A stretch of DNA of 64,000 nt, from contig CP060760.1 of assembly GCA_023205875.1 (NCBI GenBank), positions 248,001-312,000 of the forward strand. The letters are read 5' to 3'. The notes below the pieces were generated by a model. It was not told the origin of the DNA, did not search any database, and saw only the letters and a list, made by a program, of their open reading frames with translations. The position numbers and the translations under genes were made by a program. This DNA comes from Chloropicon primus. Taxonomy: Eukaryota > Chlorophyta > Chloropicophyceae > Chloropicales > Chloropicaceae. Shown here piece by piece: positions 5,921 to 48,909 of the stretch. Positions within the stretch are counted from its first letter, which is position 1; each line of letters starts with the position of its first letter.

Positions 5921-8350
5921 TCAAGTCTCGTGCGGCAAATGGGAGAAGTGTATGGTGGCAACGATCACCACAATGGCAACGATCACCAAGTTTCCGCCTG
6001 CTACAATCGTTGCTCTCATTGGATGGATCTGCTCAGTCTCGTTCTCAAAAGTGAGAAGGATCGGAACTTGCTTGATGCTCCTGTACTTGTTCGGATTCGC
6101 CATGTACTCGTACTCCACCCGCAGAAGAGTCCACTGGCATCTCCGCAGGATCTCGATTGTCCCCGCGATCGTCTTCGTGGTCTGGGCCCCGAGACCTGGA
6201 ATGATACTGTAGGGAGTAATCGTGAACGCCCAGGCTATCCTCCCGATGAAATTGGTGATGCAAGCGAAAACGTAGAACCACCGGGCGTTGATGAAACCGA
6301 TCTGCTTCCTGATCCCCTTTCTCGTGATGTAACCCCAGTCACACGCGATGTCCCAGCAATAACAGTACAAGGTTGAAACGATCAACATCGTGAACCACAC
6401 AGCCTTCCCGACACTCCAATGCCCGTCAACCTTGACGTAGTTTCCGAGGGAGGCCAGGCAAATTGCGCTCAAGGAGGTCAGGTACTTGCCGCAATTGACC
6501 AGCTGCCACTTATCTTGAGTGTCGTAATACCTCCTTATGCATTCCTGCACTCGATAGTAGTACGGGATACCAGTCAGAATGTGGGCTGTGAGGACGTGCT
6601 TTGGGTGCAACGACGATTCACCTGGGTGGAAGCCGCTGCCGGACACGTAGTAGAGCACCGTGTTCTCAAAGTCCACGATCCAAGCAACCATCGATGTCAA
6701 GACATCTGCCACGTAATTCTCCCTAAACCTAACCTCGGGCCCTATGAACGCAATCACCCTTTGGAAGATGATTGTCAAGGTCTGGAAGAACCACTTCCTG
6801 CTCTTGAAGTAGAAGGCTCCAGAAGGCGCAATGCAAGCCAGGAACATGACCAGGAACAAGGTCAGTGGCCAAACGTACAAGGGCAAGTCAAGCAAGGAGT
6901 ACCCTGTCTTGACAGTAGCCGTGTACAGTAGCAAGGAAATCAACCAAAAGCTCGTCATCGTTGCCGCAAGCGATGCACTGCCGTGGATGCCGAGCTCGTG
7001 CTTTGGATCCATGTCCAGAATCCAGAGGTAGTTGATGCCGTACGAGCGCCACAAGTACACAAGGACGCTCCAGCCCCAAATGAAGAGGATGGGGAAGAAG
7101 ATCACCCGGTACACTGGAATCACTTCGATCATGGACGTCGAGCAGAAGGGGCAGTCTGTCCTCGCTGGGTGGTACGTCGTGACCCAAATCAGCGCAAGAG
7201 TCAAGGCCACGTCGAACCCGAGGAAGAAGCCGACCTTGAGGGAGGGTTTGAGCGACGCCTTGTACACCATAAGCTTGGACCTCGCCTTGTCGATGTTGTT
7301 TTCCGTGAAATGCATCGCGTAGCTTCTCGCCAGCAGATCTGCTAGCTCATCCATCTTCTCCGACTTGCAGCACACCTCCTCCTTGAAGCAAGCCTTTGCA
7401 GTCAGCCGAGTCTTCTTCTTGCACTTCTTGGCCGCCTTCTGGAATCCCGTCAAGTTGAGCGTGGCCACCTGCTTGAGCTGCATGATGTGAACGTGCATCT
7501 CTCTGTAGGCGTGCTCGATCGTGTCCGGCTGGCTCCAGATCGCCTGGAACAGAGGCTGGGGCGCCTTGTAGGTCCTCAGCTTGGACTCGCTGTTCCTCCT
7601 CGATGGCGTCCTCGGTGGGGATTGAGGGCCGGGGAAAGACTCGGCGTCAGACAGACCAGAGGTTCTCCTGATCTGGGGCACGTCGTCTGTGAAGCTCGTC
7701 CTCGGGGACCTCGTGTCAGAAACCACCGGAGAGGTCTGCTCGTGCTCGTCCTCGTGATCCTGCACCCCGTGGTCAGAGTTGGGATCTGACACCCTTCTCT
7801 GCCCGTAGGGAACGGGGGAAAGGTTGGTGAAACTGACCCTCGGTGAGGGAGGCCCGGCCTTGGTGCCCGTTATGTTGTTCACCGTCTGTATCAACGAGCG
7901 AATACTCGACTCCAGCTCCGCTTCCTTGTGCGCCAAGAAGAAATTGCACCTCGACAACTCGCTCAACATCGCAGCCAGGAACTGGTCGTGCTTCTCCTTC
8001 CTCGTGGCCTCGTCCTCCGCGTCGTCCAGTATGGAGACAGAATCGAGCAAGGGCTCCACGTTCTCGCCGTCAGAGTTTCCTTTGCCGCAGCAGCAGCAGA
8101 CCCAGCTCTTGATCCAGAGAATGGTCAGCACAATCCACGTAAGGACTGCCGAGACGACGCGCTTCACCTGCTTCCCCAACGACGACGACGTGCTCAAAGG
8201 CATGGCCGTGGTTCCTATCTTGAGGTTGTCGTCATCGATGCTGTGCCTTCCGCTTCGTTGCTCGACACAGGCAACGAGCATCCCGTAGTCCAGGTACCCA
8301 TCCTCGAGGCCCTCGATCAAGTTGGCCTTGAGGAACTCACCGAAATGCAT
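5921..8350 (-). CDS. SPX-EXS phosphate exporter, PHO1/XPR1 family
   Basis: 809 residues. Members export inorganic phosphate and sense inositol pyrophosphates through the SPX domain. The ATG at 8350-8348 gives MHFGEFLKANLIEGL, the classic SPX start; the frame extends only to a TTG upstream. The SPX domain is spread over about 330 residues: the first helices are at 1-35, and the lysine surface helix NLTGFQKAAKKCKKKTRL is near 298. Between them lie a hydrophobic stretch (64-84), the run CCCC (85-88) and a Ser/Pro-rich linker. The C-terminal half has several membrane spans and the EXS signature with IEILRRCQWTLLRVEYEY near 735. No intron. The hydrophobic, Cys-rich insertion is atypical. Confidence 0.92.
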   Translation of the reverse strand: MHFGEFLKANLIEGLEDGYLDYGMLVACVEQRSGRHSIDDDNLKIGTTAMPLSTSSSLGKQVKRVVSAVLTWIVLTILWIKSWVCCCCGKGNSDGENVEPLLDSVSILDDAEDEATRKEKHDQFLAAMLSELSRCNFFLAHKEAELESSIRSLIQTVNNITGTKAGPPSPRVSFTNLSPVPYGQRRVSDPNSDHGVQDHEDEHEQTSPVVSDTRSPRTSFTDDVPQIRRTSGLSDAESFPGPQSPPRTPSRRNSESKLRTYKAPQPLFQAIWSQPDTIEHAYREMHVHIMQLKQVATLNLTGFQKAAKKCKKKTRLTAKACFKEEVCCKSEKMDELADLLARSYAMHFTENNIDKARSKLMVYKASLKPSLKVGFFLGFDVALTLALIWVTTYHPARTDCPFCSTSMIEVIPVYRVIFFPILFIWGWSVLVYLWRSYGINYLWILDMDPKHELGIHGSASLAATMTSFWLISLLLYTATVKTGYSLLDLPLYVWPLTLFLVMFLACIAPSGAFYFKSRKWFFQTLTIIFQRVIAFIGPEVRFRENYVADVLTSMVAWIVDFENTVLYYVSGSGFHPGESSLHPKHVLTAHILTGIPYYYRVQECIRRYYDTQDKWQLVNCGKYLTSLSAICLASLGNYVKVDGHWSVGKAVWFTMLIVSTLYCYCWDIACDWGYITRKGIRKQIGFINARWFYVFACITNFIGRIAWAFTITPYSIIPGLGAQTTKTIAGTIEILRRCQWTLLRVEYEYMANPNKYRSIKQVPILLTFENETEQIHPMRATIVAGGNLVIVAIVVIVATIHFSHLPHET

Positions 8351-13808: not shown

Positions 13809-15443
13809 ATGGCTCACAACATGATACCGCCTCAGGTGGCCATGACGCCCCCACCCCAACCACAAACTTATGCGAACGCGTCCTCCCAACAGCAGCAGCA
13901 GCAGCAACAACAACAACAACAGGCTGCTGCCCTGTACCAGCAGCCCATGGGTGCCATGCAGCAGCAGCACCCCATGTACGCCATGCCCATGGGATACAAC
14001 CCTGCCATGATGATGCCAAACTACTATATGCAGCAGGGCATGCAGAGGGGCATGCAGATGCCGTACGGCATGCAGCCTCCACCGGGCTCGAATCCCGCCG
14101 CCCAAGCCGGCTACCAGCAGCAGCAGATGGGCCACCAGCAGGGAATGCCCCCGCCACAGGCGCCCCAGCAGCAGCAGCAGCAGCAGCAGGGTGCGGCGAA
14201 CCCCGGAGCGGTCGTCCCCTCGAACGGAAACGGAGAGGGCTGGAAGAACGGTCTTCGACTTCCACCCAAGGACGACAGGGTCAGGACGAGCGATGTGACC
14301 AACACGAAGGGCTGCGAGTTTGAGGACTTTTACCTCAAGAGGGAGCTGCTCATGGGAATTTACGAGAAGGGCTTCGACAAGCCATCCCCAATCCAGGAGG
14401 AAAGCATTCCCATCGCTCTCACGGGAAGGGACGTCCTCGCCAGGGCGAAGAACGGGACCGGAAAGACCGCCTCCTTCATCATCCCAATCCTCGAGAGAGT
14501 GAAGACCACCAAGAACTGCATCCAGGCGCTCATCTTGGTGCCAACGAGGGAGCTGGCGCTCCAGACCTCCCAGGTCTGCAAGGAGATCGGAAAGAACCTC
14601 ACCGGGTGCCAGATCATGGTGTCCACCGGTGGAACGACCCTCAAGGACGACATCATGAGGCTGCACAACCCAGTGCACATTGTGGTCGCCACGCCGGGTA
14701 GGATTCTGGACCTCGCCGAGAAGGGCGTCGCGAGGCTCGGCAACTGCGAGATGTTTGTTTTGGACGAGGCCGACAAGCTCCTTTCCGTGGAGTTCGAGCC
14801 GGTCATTGAGAAGTTGATCCGAATGTGCTCGGAAACCAGGCAAATCATGCTCTTCTCCGCCACCTTCCCTGTCACCGTGAAGGCCTTCAAGGAGAAGTGG
14901 CTCAAGAGGCCTTACGTGATCAACAAGATGGACGAGCTTACCCTCAAGGGAGTGACGCAGTACTACGCCTTTGTGGAGGAGAAGCAGAAGTTGCACTGCC
15001 TCAACACCGTCTTCAGCAAGCTGGACGTCAACCAGTCCATTATATTCTGCAACTCTGTGAACAGGGTGGAGCTGTTGGCCAAGAAGATTACCGAGATGGG
15101 CTACTCTTGCTTTTACATCCACGCGAGGATGCTCCAGAGCCATAGGAACAGGGTCTTCCACGACTTCAGGAACGGAGCCTGCAGGAACTTGGTGTCCACC
15201 GACCTGTTCACCAGAGGAATTGACGTGCAGGCAGTGAACGTCGTGATCAACTTCGACTTCCCAAAGACCTCCGAGACGTATTTGCACAGAGTTGGAAGGT
15301 CCGGAAGGTTCGGTCACTTGGGCTTGGCCATCAACCTCATCACGTACGAGGATAGGCACAACTTGTTTAGGATTGAGAAGGAGTTGGGTACTGAGATCAA
15401 GAGCATCCCACCACAGATTGAGAAGAGCCTGTACTGTGCTTAA
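13809..15443 (+). CDS. DHH1: DEAD-box RNA helicase DDX6/Dhh1 (P-body component)
   Basis: 544 residues. DDX6/Dhh1 represses translation and promotes mRNA decapping in cytoplasmic P-bodies. The N-terminal 160 residues are Gln/Met/Pro-rich, coded by CAG/CAA runs, and likely disordered. The helicase core is complete: Q-motif ([17 protein letters not shown]), motif I (AKNGTGKT), Ia (PTRELALQ), Ib (TPGRILDLA), DEAD, SAT, IV (IIFCNSVNR), V ([13 protein letters not shown]) and VI ([10 protein letters not shown]). It ends QIEKSLYCA, the usual Dhh1 C-terminus. No intron. Codon choice is the most biased in the window, suggesting high expression. Confidence 0.96.
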
Positions 15444-15692
15444 GAAGCACCCGGAGAGACTTCAGCGACAGGAAAGAGATGCAGAAGAGAGAACCAGAGT
15501 GATCCGCAAGCGCCGCGCGAGGAGAGAGGCTTTCCTCTTTCCTCGGGGCGACTTGCTTGTATTAGTAGCGCGTGTACATTGATGTGACAAAATCAACATC
15601 CGGAGAGGTTCCGGAGCATGATGAGAATAACAACACCCTGGCTCGGGGAGGTCCCGAGTCGATATGTGCTAGAAAGAGCATGAGTTTTTGTT

Positions 15693-15697
15693 TGTAA
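15693..15697 (+). terminator. TGTAA poly(A) signal of DDX6 (putative)
   Basis: TGTAA about 250 nt after the stop, giving a long 3' UTR that faces the 3' UTR of selenoprotein K. Confidence 0.4.
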
Positions 15698-15747
15698 TGT
15701 ACTTTTCTCAAGCTCCTCACTTGACAAGCAGTCAATTTGGTTTTTGT

Positions 15748-15752
15748 TTACA
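15748..15752 (-). terminator. TGTAA poly(A) signal of selenoprotein K (putative)
   Basis: TGTAA on the minus strand, about 40 nt beyond the SECIS-like hairpin, so the hairpin would stay in the mature mRNA. Confidence 0.45.
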
Positions 15753-15790
15753 AGATAGTAACAAAGGTTTTACCCCCCCGGTCGTGGCAG

Positions 15791-15833
15791 TTCAGTCGGC
15801 ACGGTCTTTCTCGACTTCCCGTGTCGTCGTCAT
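15791..15833 (-). ncRNA. SECIS-like hairpin in the 3' UTR of selenoprotein K
   Basis: Read on the minus strand, ATGA at 15833-15830 is followed after 12 nt by AA and later by TGA near 15793. Helix II has 10 positions of which 8 pair (5' GACGACACGG against 3' CCGTGCCGAC, with mismatches A-A and A-C). After the AA bulge a small helix, GTC with GAC closed by a six-base loop, makes it resemble a form-2 SECIS. The quartet, the spacing and the AA all fit the eukaryotic selenocysteine insertion element. It lies about 65 nt past the TAA stop. This was folded by eye, not by program. Confidence 0.75.
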
Positions 15834-15897
15834 ATATCTTGGCCCTCGCCGGTGTACCTCTGCATGAAAAGGGTGGTGCCTCAGCGAGCACCGCCCC

Positions 15898-16209
15898 TTA
15901 CCTTCGTCATCCACCGCCGGGAACGTTTCCGGAGCTCTTGTAGTCCTTTATCCCGGCTATTCGTGGACCCCTGTTCCTCGGCCCTCTCGGGTTACCGCCC
16001 CCTCCTCCGCCCCCTCCGCCGAAGTTGTTGTTGCTCCTCGCCCCCGTCGTCTTGCCCGTCCTCCTGTAGTGGTTGGCCTTCTCCAAACTAAACATGGTCT
16101 CGAAGAACTGGCCTATCACGTTCATCAAGGACCAGAAGAGGTCGGAAATGATGGAAAGCCTGAACGGGCTTCGCTTCTCAACGATGCGACCTTGGACGAC
16201 GTGAACCAT
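15898..16209 (-). CDS. SELENOK: Selenoprotein K with in-frame TGA read as selenocysteine
   Basis: 103 residues counting selenocysteine. SelK is a single-span ER membrane protein linked to ER-associated degradation and, in animals, protein palmitoylation with DHHC6. The sequence starts MVHVVQGRIVEKRSPFRL, spans the membrane at about 18-42 (LSIISDLFWSLMNVIGQFFETMFS), then has a Gly/Arg/Asn-rich cytosolic tail as in all SelK proteins. At codon 101 (15909-15907) a TGA follows GGG and is followed by two arginines and TAA, giving GGG-Sec-RR; animal SelK ends GG-Sec-GR. A SECIS-like hairpin sits downstream. The start is the Met matching the family N-terminus; the frame is open upstream but has no earlier ATG. 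Simple ORF callers would stop at the TGA. Confidence 0.88.
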
Positions 16210-16572
16210 CCTTGCGTTCTGCCCCCCGGCCCTCGTCCCCCTCACCGCCTCCTCTCCTCTCCTCTTCGTCTCGCCTTCTTCCTGGAGAATCTGTCCCTCG
16301 ATGGCCTCGAGGGCCTCGAGGGCCTGGGTGATGGTGATGGTGATGGTGATGGTGGCTGGATGGCGATGGTGGTGGAGGCAGGGGTTGATCCGAGTCAAAG
16401 ATGACTCCACGGCCTCTTCCTCTTTCGCAAGGACCCTCACTTGCTGGGGAAAGGGACAAAGAAGGCGATTGATGATGGCGAATGAACAGAAGGACAAGGA
16501 GTGAGAGTGTGTGTGGGTGGGGGGGGGGGGGAGCCCGAGAAAGTCGCTGGAGTCATGCAATCTTGAATTACT
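16210..16572. promoter_or_regulatory. Upstream region of selenoprotein K
   Basis: 363 bp between the SelK start and the 3' end of the ABCG gene. It has a repeated GATGGT block near 16331-16356 and a 12-base G run near 16519. A 5' UTR intron is possible but not provable here. Confidence 0.3.
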
Positions 16573-42217: not shown

Positions 42218-42621
42218 CTCGTCCGCCCTAGGCGCCGCCCACCAACTCTGTCTGATGCTGTTGCCTCTGGGTCTCAGCACAGGTCGGTTCTGTCATCGAG
42301 GGGACCATTGCCATTGCGAGGAGGGGAAGGACGAAGCGGGACTTGGCTAGGCTTCTGTGATCCACACGAGAGGGTTAAGACATACTCGCCTTTGCTTCCA
42401 CTTCACACGGAAATTGTCTTGTGGAGCAATCGCGAGGCTTGTGTGACTTGATTTGGAGACCAGCAGGAGAGAAGTTCGGATCCATCGAGGGCGTTGTGCG
42501 AGGAAGGGATCGACGGAGCAGGGTTTGGGACTGCACTCAGCAGCGATCCGGTTGTTCATCGGTGGGGCTCTGCTTTGCTCTCGAGTCCCGTCAAAGCCAA
42601 GACAGGAGGCTCTACCCCCCA

Positions 42622-42656
<35 letters not shown>

Positions 42657-42708
42657 GCTGACTTTGAGTGGAGTTGATGACCTGCAGGCCCAAGGGAGGA
42701 GCACTGCT
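42218..42708. promoter_or_regulatory. Shared upstream region of tafazzin-like and methyltransferase genes
   Basis: 491 bp. The plus strand has a (CT)n run at about 42623-42647 followed by a TGCAG, so a 5' UTR intron of the methyltransferase gene is possible. No gene is supported. Confidence 0.35.
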
Positions 42709-44355
42709 ATGATTGATGCCCCACACTGGACGGTGACGGGTCGCGTCACTCGGCGCAGGGAGCACGGGAAGAAGCTTCTGTTCTTCGATGTGACGGTGGA
42801 CAGGGAATTGTCCCTCCCTCTCCTTGCTTCCAGTGCAGAGTCCTCGCCAAAGAGGGACAGGTCCGGAGACGCAAGGTGCTGCTCCACTGCGACCGTGAGG
42901 AACACCATGCCCACGTTCGAGGGAAGGGAGGTGCCCACGTTCCAGGTGGTCCACAGCATGCGGTGCTACCCGGAGGGTGCCATGGACCTCAAGCGATTCA
43001 AGTGCCTGACCAAGCTGGTGATGCCAAAAGCCGTCGTCAGGGTCAAGGGAAAGTTCGGGAGGACGAAGACGCAGGAGCTCAGCCTGTTTGCGGATGACCT
43101 GCAGATTGTGCGGGTGCAGCCTGATCCCAGTGCAGTGGTGAAGATGCTCTGCAACACTTGGTGCGCATCGGATGACGATGACGACGGCGGCGGTGGGGCC
43201 GGGGGAGACGAGGGGGATTCGCTCTTCGACGTGAGGTACTGCGCTGAAGCCTTGGGCGGCGGGGGAGGGGATTCTTCATCCTCCAGCGAAGGAGAAGTCT
43301 GGTTCGGGCACAAGGAACTGGTTCGGGATCTCCAGGAGCTGATGCTGCACCACCCGAGCCAGTTCAGGCGGGAGTGCTCGTCGATCGCGAGGCAGCTGCA
43401 AGGTTTGCCCCCGCACAGGATGAGGTCGAAGCCGATGAAGATCCAGGCCAGGGACGTGGCCCTGCTGGACGGCGGCTACAGCACGGGGCTGCGGGAAGCG
43501 TACGCAGTGGACTCCGCGCTGGGCGAGGAGGTGGAGACCGCGATGGGGGCACTCGGTGGAGACATGTCCGGCCTCCTCGAGAAGCTGATTCAGAACCTCC
43601 CCTGCCTGGACCCCGAGGAGAAGAGGAGGAGGGAGCTGTACATGAGGGAGAAAAAGTGGCCTCAGATTCTTTGGATCGCGTCCCAGGTGGAGAGGATGCT
43701 CGGCGGCCTGAGATCCCCCGAGGGGGGAGGATCGTCGAGGGCCGCGCCCGTCAGGATAGCGGACGTCGGGGCGGGGCGGGGCGACCTCTCGCTCGCCCTG
43801 GCCCTGAAATTCAGGGACTGCCAGTTCGTCGTGATCGACGTCAACGAGAGCTCCCTGAACCAGGGCAAGGCTCTCGCCGCCAGGCTGAAGATCAAGAACG
43901 TGACCTTCCTTCTGCAGGACGTCAAATGCATCAGCCGATTCAACGAGGACTTTGACCTGTTCATCGGGCTGCACGCTTGCGGCGGGCTCACTGACGCCAT
44001 CCTGGAGCAAGTGTCCCTCCAGAGGTCCCCCGCCTCGTTCCTGATCTGCACGTGCTGCTTCGGCAAGAACAAGGACCTGAGGCCGGAGGCCTTTGCGCCG
44101 GCGTTCGGGCGCCACGGGGAGGAGGGTTGCGAGCGCACCCTATGCAGGCTGGCGGACTGCCAGGAGCACGATCTGTCCAGCAAAGCCATGCACGCGGTGA
44201 ACGCCGGCAGGCTGCGAGTCCTGGAGGGCCTCGTGGGATCCGCCGCCCTCGCGTGCACGCTCAAAGCCTTTCCGAGGCGATGGTCCTCCAAGAACATGGT
44301 CCTGTGCGGGGAGCACAGATCAAGAAAGACCGAACCGCTTGCTGTAAAACAGTGA
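42709..44355 (+). CDS. OB-fold plus class I methyltransferase (Methyltransf_32 type), likely RNA-directed
   Basis: 548 residues from the first ATG, MIDAPHWTVTGRVTRRR. Residues 5-135 look like an OB-fold of the aminoacyl-tRNA-synthetase anticodon-binding kind (GRVTRRREHGKKLLFFDVTV). A linker with Asp/Gly- and Ser-rich runs follows. The C-terminal methyltransferase shows the SAM motif RIADVGAGRGDLSLALAL, the acidic strand end VVIDVNESSL, then DLFIGLHACGGLTDAILEQ and LICTCCFG, the HACG/CCFG pair of Methyltransf_32, GSTCD and TRMT13-like enzymes. I infer a tRNA or other RNA substrate from the OB-fold; the exact target is unknown. No intron in the coding part. Confidence 0.8.
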   Translation: MIDAPHWTVTGRVTRRREHGKKLLFFDVTVDRELSLPLLASSAESSPKRDRSGDARCCSTATVRNTMPTFEGREVPTFQVVHSMRCYPEGAMDLKRFKCLTKLVMPKAVVRVKGKFGRTKTQELSLFADDLQIVRVQPDPSAVVKMLCNTWCASDDDDDGGGGAGGDEGDSLFDVRYCAEALGGGGGDSSSSSEGEVWFGHKELVRDLQELMLHHPSQFRRECSSIARQLQGLPPHRMRSKPMKIQARDVALLDGGYSTGLREAYAVDSALGEEVETAMGALGGDMSGLLEKLIQNLPCLDPEEKRRRELYMREKKWPQILWIASQVERMLGGLRSPEGGGSSRAAPVRIADVGAGRGDLSLALALKFRDCQFVVIDVNESSLNQGKALAARLKIKNVTFLLQDVKCISRFNEDFDLFIGLHACGGLTDAILEQVSLQRSPASFLICTCCFGKNKDLRPEAFAPAFGRHGEEGCERTLCRLADCQEHDLSSKAMHAVNAGRLRVLEGLVGSAALACTLKAFPRRWSSKNMVLCGEHRSRKTEPLAVKQ

Positions 44356-47980: not shown

Positions 47981-48909
47981 GTCTGCTTGCCTGCCCCGAC
48001 CCCTCAAGGCCTCGAGACGTGGAGACGATCAAGGAGAGAACGGGCTGCACGGCGATACTCTGCCTCCAGTCCCACGCGTGCTTCGAGGCCCTGGGCATCG
48101 ACCACCCGAGGATCAGGGCCAAGGGCGGGGACGTTGGCGTCAAGGTGGTTCACGTTCCGATCAGGGACTTTGATCACGGGAACCAGGCGGAGATGATCCC
48201 GGAGGCCGTCAGGGTCCTCTCCCTGCTGCTGAAGACGGGTCACAAGGTCTACGTGCACTGCACTGCTGGGATCAACAGGGCGACGCTCACCGTTCTGTCG
48301 TACCTCACGTTCGTGGAGGGGAGGTCTTTGGACGAGTCGTACGACTTCATCAAGAAGAAGAGGCCCCAGGCGCACCCTTACCTGGACTGCTGGTGGACGG
48401 CGAGGTCCAGGTTCCTGCAGGGGAGGTCGGAAGAGATCGAGTCCAAGTCCAGGGAGCTTTACGAGCAAAGGATCAACTCGTGCGAACCCGGAACGACGGG
48501 GGAGGACTGGTTCAAGGCGGAGACCCTGCTGATCCAAGACACTTACAAGAACAAGTGGGAGGTGGACAGGAGCCTGGCGGAAGCGTGGACCGCGAACACG
48601 AAGGATGTGGAGGAGATGTACCAGAACGAGCTCGAGCAGACGAGACTGGAGGCGAACACGCTGAAGCAGGAGCTCAACGTGGTGCTGAGGGACGCTTGGG
48701 TCGAGCTCCAGAGGAAGGAGAGGCTGGAGACGGAGATGAAGAGCGTGAACAAGCAGATGTCTGCCATGAAGAGCGCCTTTGAGGTCTTGCACTCCAACCT
48801 CAGCAGGTCGTGCGAGACCATGGGCAGCGAAGAAGAAGCCTCGGCGGAAGAGGCCAGCGTGCCGGAAGACCGCCCCCCCCGCACGGGTGGCGGCGACAGT
48901 TTTGCGTAA
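47565..48909 (+). CDS. Dual-specificity phosphatase, LSF2/SEX4-like, with C-terminal coiled coil
   Basis: Exons 47565-47860 and 48009-48909, with a 148-nt CT-rich intron, give 398 residues. The N-terminus MLATRGSARTVVATACRQGSQ looks like an organelle transit peptide. The catalytic domain runs from WDEITPNIWCGACPRVPRDV (start) through the general acid block RDFD to the P-loop HCTAGINRAT (CX5R) and a C-terminal KKKRPQAHPYLDCW. The start and RDFD block match the plant phosphoglucan phosphatases LSF2 and SEX4, which remove phosphate from starch. No carbohydrate-binding module follows; residues 270-380 form a long coiled coil instead. TGTAA lies at 48942-48946. Confidence 0.84.

Follow-up and report, generated by a model that had tools for sequence, protein, structure and literature searches.

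The minus-strand gene described here encodes selenoprotein K (SelK) of Chloropicon primus, and the UGA at its codon 101 is very probably read as selenocysteine (Sec) by means of a SECIS hairpin in the 3' UTR; we put the probability of this reading at about 0.92. The window, i.e., the whole stretch of DNA that was analysed, is 64,000 nucleotides long. Judged from its sequence, SelK appears to be a genuine selenoprotein gene, for which we infer Sec insertion itself. With a SECIS element and the decoding machinery in the same genome, it would be a true selenoprotein K of the usual sort, adding one more member to a family already known. In the proposed mechanism, the hairpin, 73 nt past the UGA, would bind an SBP2 homologue, which would bring in eEFSec carrying Sec-tRNA-Sec, so that codon 101 would be read as Sec. 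The product would be small, hydrophobic along a stretch near its N-terminus, and would carry a Gly/Arg-rich tail ending in GGG-Sec-Arg-Arg. By analogy with animal SelK, it may reside in the membrane of the ER and would play the same role.

The reading frame starts with the ATG at 16209, and the TGA (15909-15907) is codon 101 of 103. As claimed in the earlier note, which was made from the letters of the window, two arginine codons and a stop follow directly (CGA AGG TAA, with the stop at 15900-15898), giving the C-terminus GGG-U-RR. With the TGA read as Sec, the protein begins with MVHVVQGRIVEKRSPFRLSIISDLFWSLMNVIGQFFETMF, contains a run of nine glycines and ends in VPGGGURR. The Pfam family SelK_SelG (PF10961) matches residues 5-82 of the 103 with 63 bits (4.2e-17; curated cut-off 23.3 bits), spanning profile positions 4-69 of 86. 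The identification as SelK in the earlier note is upheld by this match, but the likeness over the whole length shrinks to these residues. Because the match ends at residue 82, the exact position of Sec within the family is putative and is assigned by likening the GGGURR end to that of animal SelK.

A search of the whole genome (C. primus RCC138; 17,584,162 bases in 20 contigs) with the SelK_SelG profile gave two matches at E <= 1, and only SelK in the window exceeded the cut-off. The other one (locus L012, C14:530306-530524, plus strand) has 22.7 bits against the required 23.3 and no TGA, and was set aside because it is short and has a low-complexity tail. The most hydrophobic 19-residue stretch of SelK, residues 18-36, has a Kyte-Doolittle mean of 1.33, which is weak for a membrane span. 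A phmmer search of the PDB returned seven weak matches, none named SelK. A search of viral contigs yielded 19 matches to the pattern, and tblastn gave no relative there. On the opposite strand of the window, a DEAD-box helicase ORF (13809-15443), which we take to be Dhh1/DDX6-like, runs towards SelK; its end and the SECIS are ~350 bases apart.

Coordinates of SelK, its SECIS element and related features (window positions unless a locus is given).
Feature	Position	Strand	Basis
SelK coding sequence, ATG to TAA, 103 aa, Sec at residue 101	15898..16209	-	translation and Pfam PF10961
In-frame TGA, proposed Sec codon	15907..15909	-	sequence
Intron-like stretch, 42 bases, GTAAGG...ATGCAG	15860..15901	-	ends resembling splice sites; computed consequences for frame and spacing
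SECIS core: ATGA, unpaired C, helix, AA in apical loop, TGA	15791..15833	-	models R1 and R2; pattern; shuffles
5' arm of core helix	15819..15828	-	paired with 15795-15804
3' arm of core helix	15795..15804	-	paired with 15819-15828
SECIS of thioredoxin reductase, CGA as 3' quartet strand	L002:1509-1548	-
SECIS of SelM, AGA as 3' quartet strand	L023:1842-1888	+

The motifs of a SECIS element follow the coding sequence in the expected order. The ATGA, 12 spacer bases, AA and TGA that the earlier note had pointed out downstream of SelK were all located on the minus strand at 15833-15792 (ATGA at 15833-15830, AA at 15817-15816, TGA at 15794-15792). The two spacings are 12 and 22 bases, and the core helix between the motifs has 7 computed pairs. 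By eye, 8 of its 10 positions are standard pairs and two are mismatches, in the order G-C, A.A, C-G, G-C, A.C, C-G, A-T, C-G, G-C, G-C after the unpaired C, with a G and then the AA above the helix. The element had been described as form-2-like on account of a GTC/GAC mini-helix. Both triplets are present in the sequence, but the mini-helix is absent from the predicted fold, in which the helix CACGG/CCGTG takes up the C of GAC. As this C is common to both, the core helix and the mini-helix cannot both form in full, and the element may hence be of form 1 or form 2; the form-2 label is not established. The distance from TGA to ATGA, 73 nt, is the same as in the thioredoxin reductase gene, in which the Sec codon also lies near the C-terminus; in the other seven genes with a SECIS element it is 317-531 nt, introns included.

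How often such a hairpin arises by chance was estimated with a pattern (ATGA-N10..13-AA-N15..39-TGA, combined with a core helix close to the quartet) on both strands of the window. At -6 kcal/mol or better, three places pass, including SelK with -8.6. The other two, at 42677 (+, -10.6) and 48736 (+, -9.2), have a better energy than SelK and lie inside long same-strand ORFs (42421-44355 and 48019-48909). With NGA allowed in the pattern, 10 distinct places pass, seven of them with a better energy than SelK; with this looser motif at -5 or better, six of the eight known elements pass, and those of SelM and of the GPx at locus L015 fail. When the 307 bases after the TGA were shuffled, any core at all appeared in 53 of 5000 sequences, and one of -8.0 or better in 16. 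The 111-base region of the SelK hairpin folds no better than its shuffles (z -0.55). The case for the SelK SECIS draws on motif, helix and place rather than on stability.

In the earlier note, the lack of a SECIS call by a covariance model was to count against the element. The Rfam model (RF00031) indeed gave no match in the 64-kb window, and a scan of 15600-16240 with permissive filters gave no SECIS and one chance-like match to a viral RNA family. Over the genome at E <= 10, the same model listed three places, with 20.8, 20.3 and 19.2 bits, the best of them still below its cut-off of 35 bits. These follow the genes of thioredoxin reductase, one GPx and a PRXL2/SelU-like protein. Since all three lie after genes with an in-frame TGA, the silence of Rfam was rejected as a refutation of the SelK element.

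Other SECIS cores of the genome were collected by eye and by script: those of four distinct GPx, thioredoxin reductase, the PRXL2-like protein, a SelW-like protein and SelM. Five of them, aligned on their arms, pair in 97.8% of 45 cells, and all nine pairs change on both sides. Their covariation score is 1.311; the shuffles averaged 0.393, and none of the 500 reached the observed value. This control makes the result look better than it is, as some cores had been chosen for their pairing. A model of five elements (R1, SelK left out), run on the window with filters off, placed 15791-15833 on the minus strand first of the seven matches listed, with 15.1 bits (E 0.12), followed by one of 12.8 bits. 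Over 17 loci, it recovered the held-out elements of SelM (24.6 bits), the SelW-like protein (20.9) and one GPx (16.3); SelK had 15.1 bits, the lowest of the nine elements, and the best other match 11.6. With a model of eight elements (R2, SelK again left out), SelK came second of the 11 matches listed in the window (14.7 bits, E 0.42), behind a false-looking match without ATGA at 7062-7099 (+, 17.0 bits). The E-values of both models are rough and none is below 0.01. Reduced to the ~300 bases downstream, on one strand, the rough E-value of R1 would correspond to a chance of about 0.0003.

SelK is not alone in carrying an in-frame TGA. Nine further genes do so, two of them identical copies, and this is a lower bound, as only four protein families were searched. 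Among the GPx, five of the six matches contain a TGA, at sites preceded by VASF, TATY, VASL or VASE. The copies L013 (C1:163046-163366, minus strand) and L014 (C1:158819-159139, plus strand) are identical over 857 nt; they lie in opposite orientation ~4 kb apart, and L015, a third, different GPx with a TGA, adjoins them. One of three Rdx matches has the TGA, within a CVK-U motif; its 22.0 bits fall just short of the required 22.6. SelM gave two matches in one frame, with the TGA in the first; thioredoxin reductase ends in GC-U-G; and the PRXL2/SelU-like protein belongs to PF13911. All nine SECIS elements collected from the genome have ATGA followed by C or T, and their arms can pair from the next base on. 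The 3' strand of the quartet is TGA in seven; the two exceptions are given in the table. For the GPx element of locus L018, folding the segment together with its flanks does not yield the core.

The core machinery for Sec insertion (tRNA-Sec, SepSecS, eEFSec and an SBP2 homologue) is present in the genome. The tRNA-Sec matches RF01852 with 66.9 bits (cut-off 47) and, according to ARAGORN, has the anticodon TCA. SepSecS is found with 418.7 bits. The best PDB match of eEFSec is 5izk (1.4e-110), and the eukaryote-specific third and fourth domains are both present, although the protein stays under the NCBIfam selB cut-off (215.5 vs. 242.25 bits). The absence of tRNA-Sec and EFSec, which the earlier note had named as grounds for giving up its reading, is not what the genome presents. 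The SBP2 gene that it had proposed to look for also has a counterpart: a frame of 635 aa (L032:1363-3270, minus strand), the sole PDB match of which at E <= 0.01 is SBP2 (7zjw, 1.3e-19) and which gave no match in NCBIfam. Its residues 397-421 also match C2H2 zinc-finger families, and a second C2H2-like stretch was seen by eye near residue 142.

The SPS gene, another suggested target, was found with a reservation. The single match to the SPS domain in the genome (305.2 bits, cut-off 125) lies in a protein of 800 aa (L010:1375-3777, minus strand), behind an N-terminal pyridine nucleotide oxidoreductase. This protein passes the NCBIfam selD cut-off (302.1 vs. 125 bits), but scores highest in NCBIfam with a model called 'fusion_not_SelD' (417.1 bits, under the cut-off of 700 of that model). 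Presumably, it has Cys at the position where some SPS have Sec. For PSTK, the family PF08433 (KTI12/PSTK) gave three matches in the genome, the best with 52.4 bits. This protein resembles archaeal PSTK structures (4e-11) and is called a candidate, as it scores far too low for the PSTK models; with the eukaryotic one it reaches 72 bits where 382 are required. Fusions of SPS with NADH-dehydrogenase-like proteins are known in protists (PMC4561486, in part). Together with the further TGA-containing genes, these homologues support the working Sec system that had been surmised for this alga, as far as sequence likeness can tell.

The TGA might also be an ordinary stop, ending a SelK of 100 aa at GGG, with the hairpin a product of chance or a decayed SECIS. 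The low R1 score of the hairpin, its invisibility to Rfam and the 16 of 5000 shuffles with an equally stable core fit such a stop. Against it, the genome by all signs decodes Sec, the hairpin ranks first or second in 64 kb with models built without SelK, and its distance from the TGA equals that in the gene of thioredoxin reductase. Furthermore, algal SELENOK, among the least widely distributed of these proteins, is almost exclusively Sec-containing (PMC7539508, in part). Termination at codon 101 is, hence, considered very improbable.

Sec insertion could be accompanied by splicing just behind the codon, and this was judged just as improbable as an ordinary stop. The stretch 15901-15860 reads AAG/GTAAGG...TTTTCATGCAG/A, with ends that resemble splice sites; its removal would keep the TGA, abolish the TAA and leave an open frame, so that the SECIS would lie inside the coding sequence and the protein would end in ...GGGURRGTPARAKIYDDDTGSRERPCRLNCHDRGGKTFVTIL. 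Counting both strands, the window has four copies of AAGGTAAG. However, 31 nt instead of 73 would then separate the TGA from the SECIS, where the minimum spacing is ~50-110 nt, and ribosomes would traverse the SECIS. The unspliced form also leaves two residues after Sec, as in animal SelK. Moreover, 42 bases is shorter than the introns inspected (75 and 119 nt, in the SelM and SelW-like genes) and than the mean of 152 bp published for C. primus RCC138, which has 0.54 introns per gene (PMC12301720, in part). The stretch is probably not an intron. Least probable of all is its partial splicing as a switch between two SelK ends, i.e., splice-controlled Sec insertion: the unspliced form would have the Sec-Arg-Arg end and 73 nt, the spliced one no TAA and a SECIS 31 nt away, in frame. 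The preferred reading thus remains an unspliced SelK with Sec as its third residue from the end.

No earlier report of a Chloropicon SelK was found in the literature within reach, which excluded most subscription journals and supplements, nor was a paper on the C-terminus of SelK. Chloropicon is not named in the main texts of the algal selenoprotein surveys PMC7539508 and PMC6627142 or in that of PMC7678280, and the main texts of two Chloropicon genome papers (including PMC12301720) contain no word starting with 'selen'. Sec machinery has been described in the Mamiellophyceae and in the Trebouxiophyceae-Ulvophyceae-Chlorophyceae clade; for some selenoproteins, those of Mamiellophyceae in particular, SECISearch3 predicts no SECIS (PMC6627142, in part). 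The present gene suggests that a full Sec system, with a set of selenoproteins, exists in the Chloropicophyceae, a class of abundant marine picoalgae distinct from the Mamiellophyceae, which have been studied better. Gene callers that take TGA as a stop would cut such genes. As the Rfam model listed only three of the nine elements, a lineage-specific model would be useful for finding the rest.

In comparison with known systems, SelK of Chloropicon resembles SELENOK/SelG (PF10961) in the family match over residues 5-82, the proposed Sec codon near the C-terminus, the Gly/Arg-rich tail and the 3' SECIS. It differs in its nine-glycine run and its GGGURR end, where animal SelK ends in GGUGR. Its SECIS stays under the threshold of RF00031, and the long mini-stem described for the elements of Ostreococcus is not predicted in it. 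In Ostreococcus, all but one element per species have a G before the core (PMC2375036, in part), whereas the nine of Chloropicon have ATGA. A Sec-containing SelK is already known in algae, namely in O. tauri and O. lucimarinus (PMC2375036, in part), and what is new is the gene in Chloropicon. With spacings of 12 and 22, its element fits the published eukaryotic SECIS pattern of NTGA, 10-13 bases, AA, 15-39 bases and GA (PMC2375036, in part).
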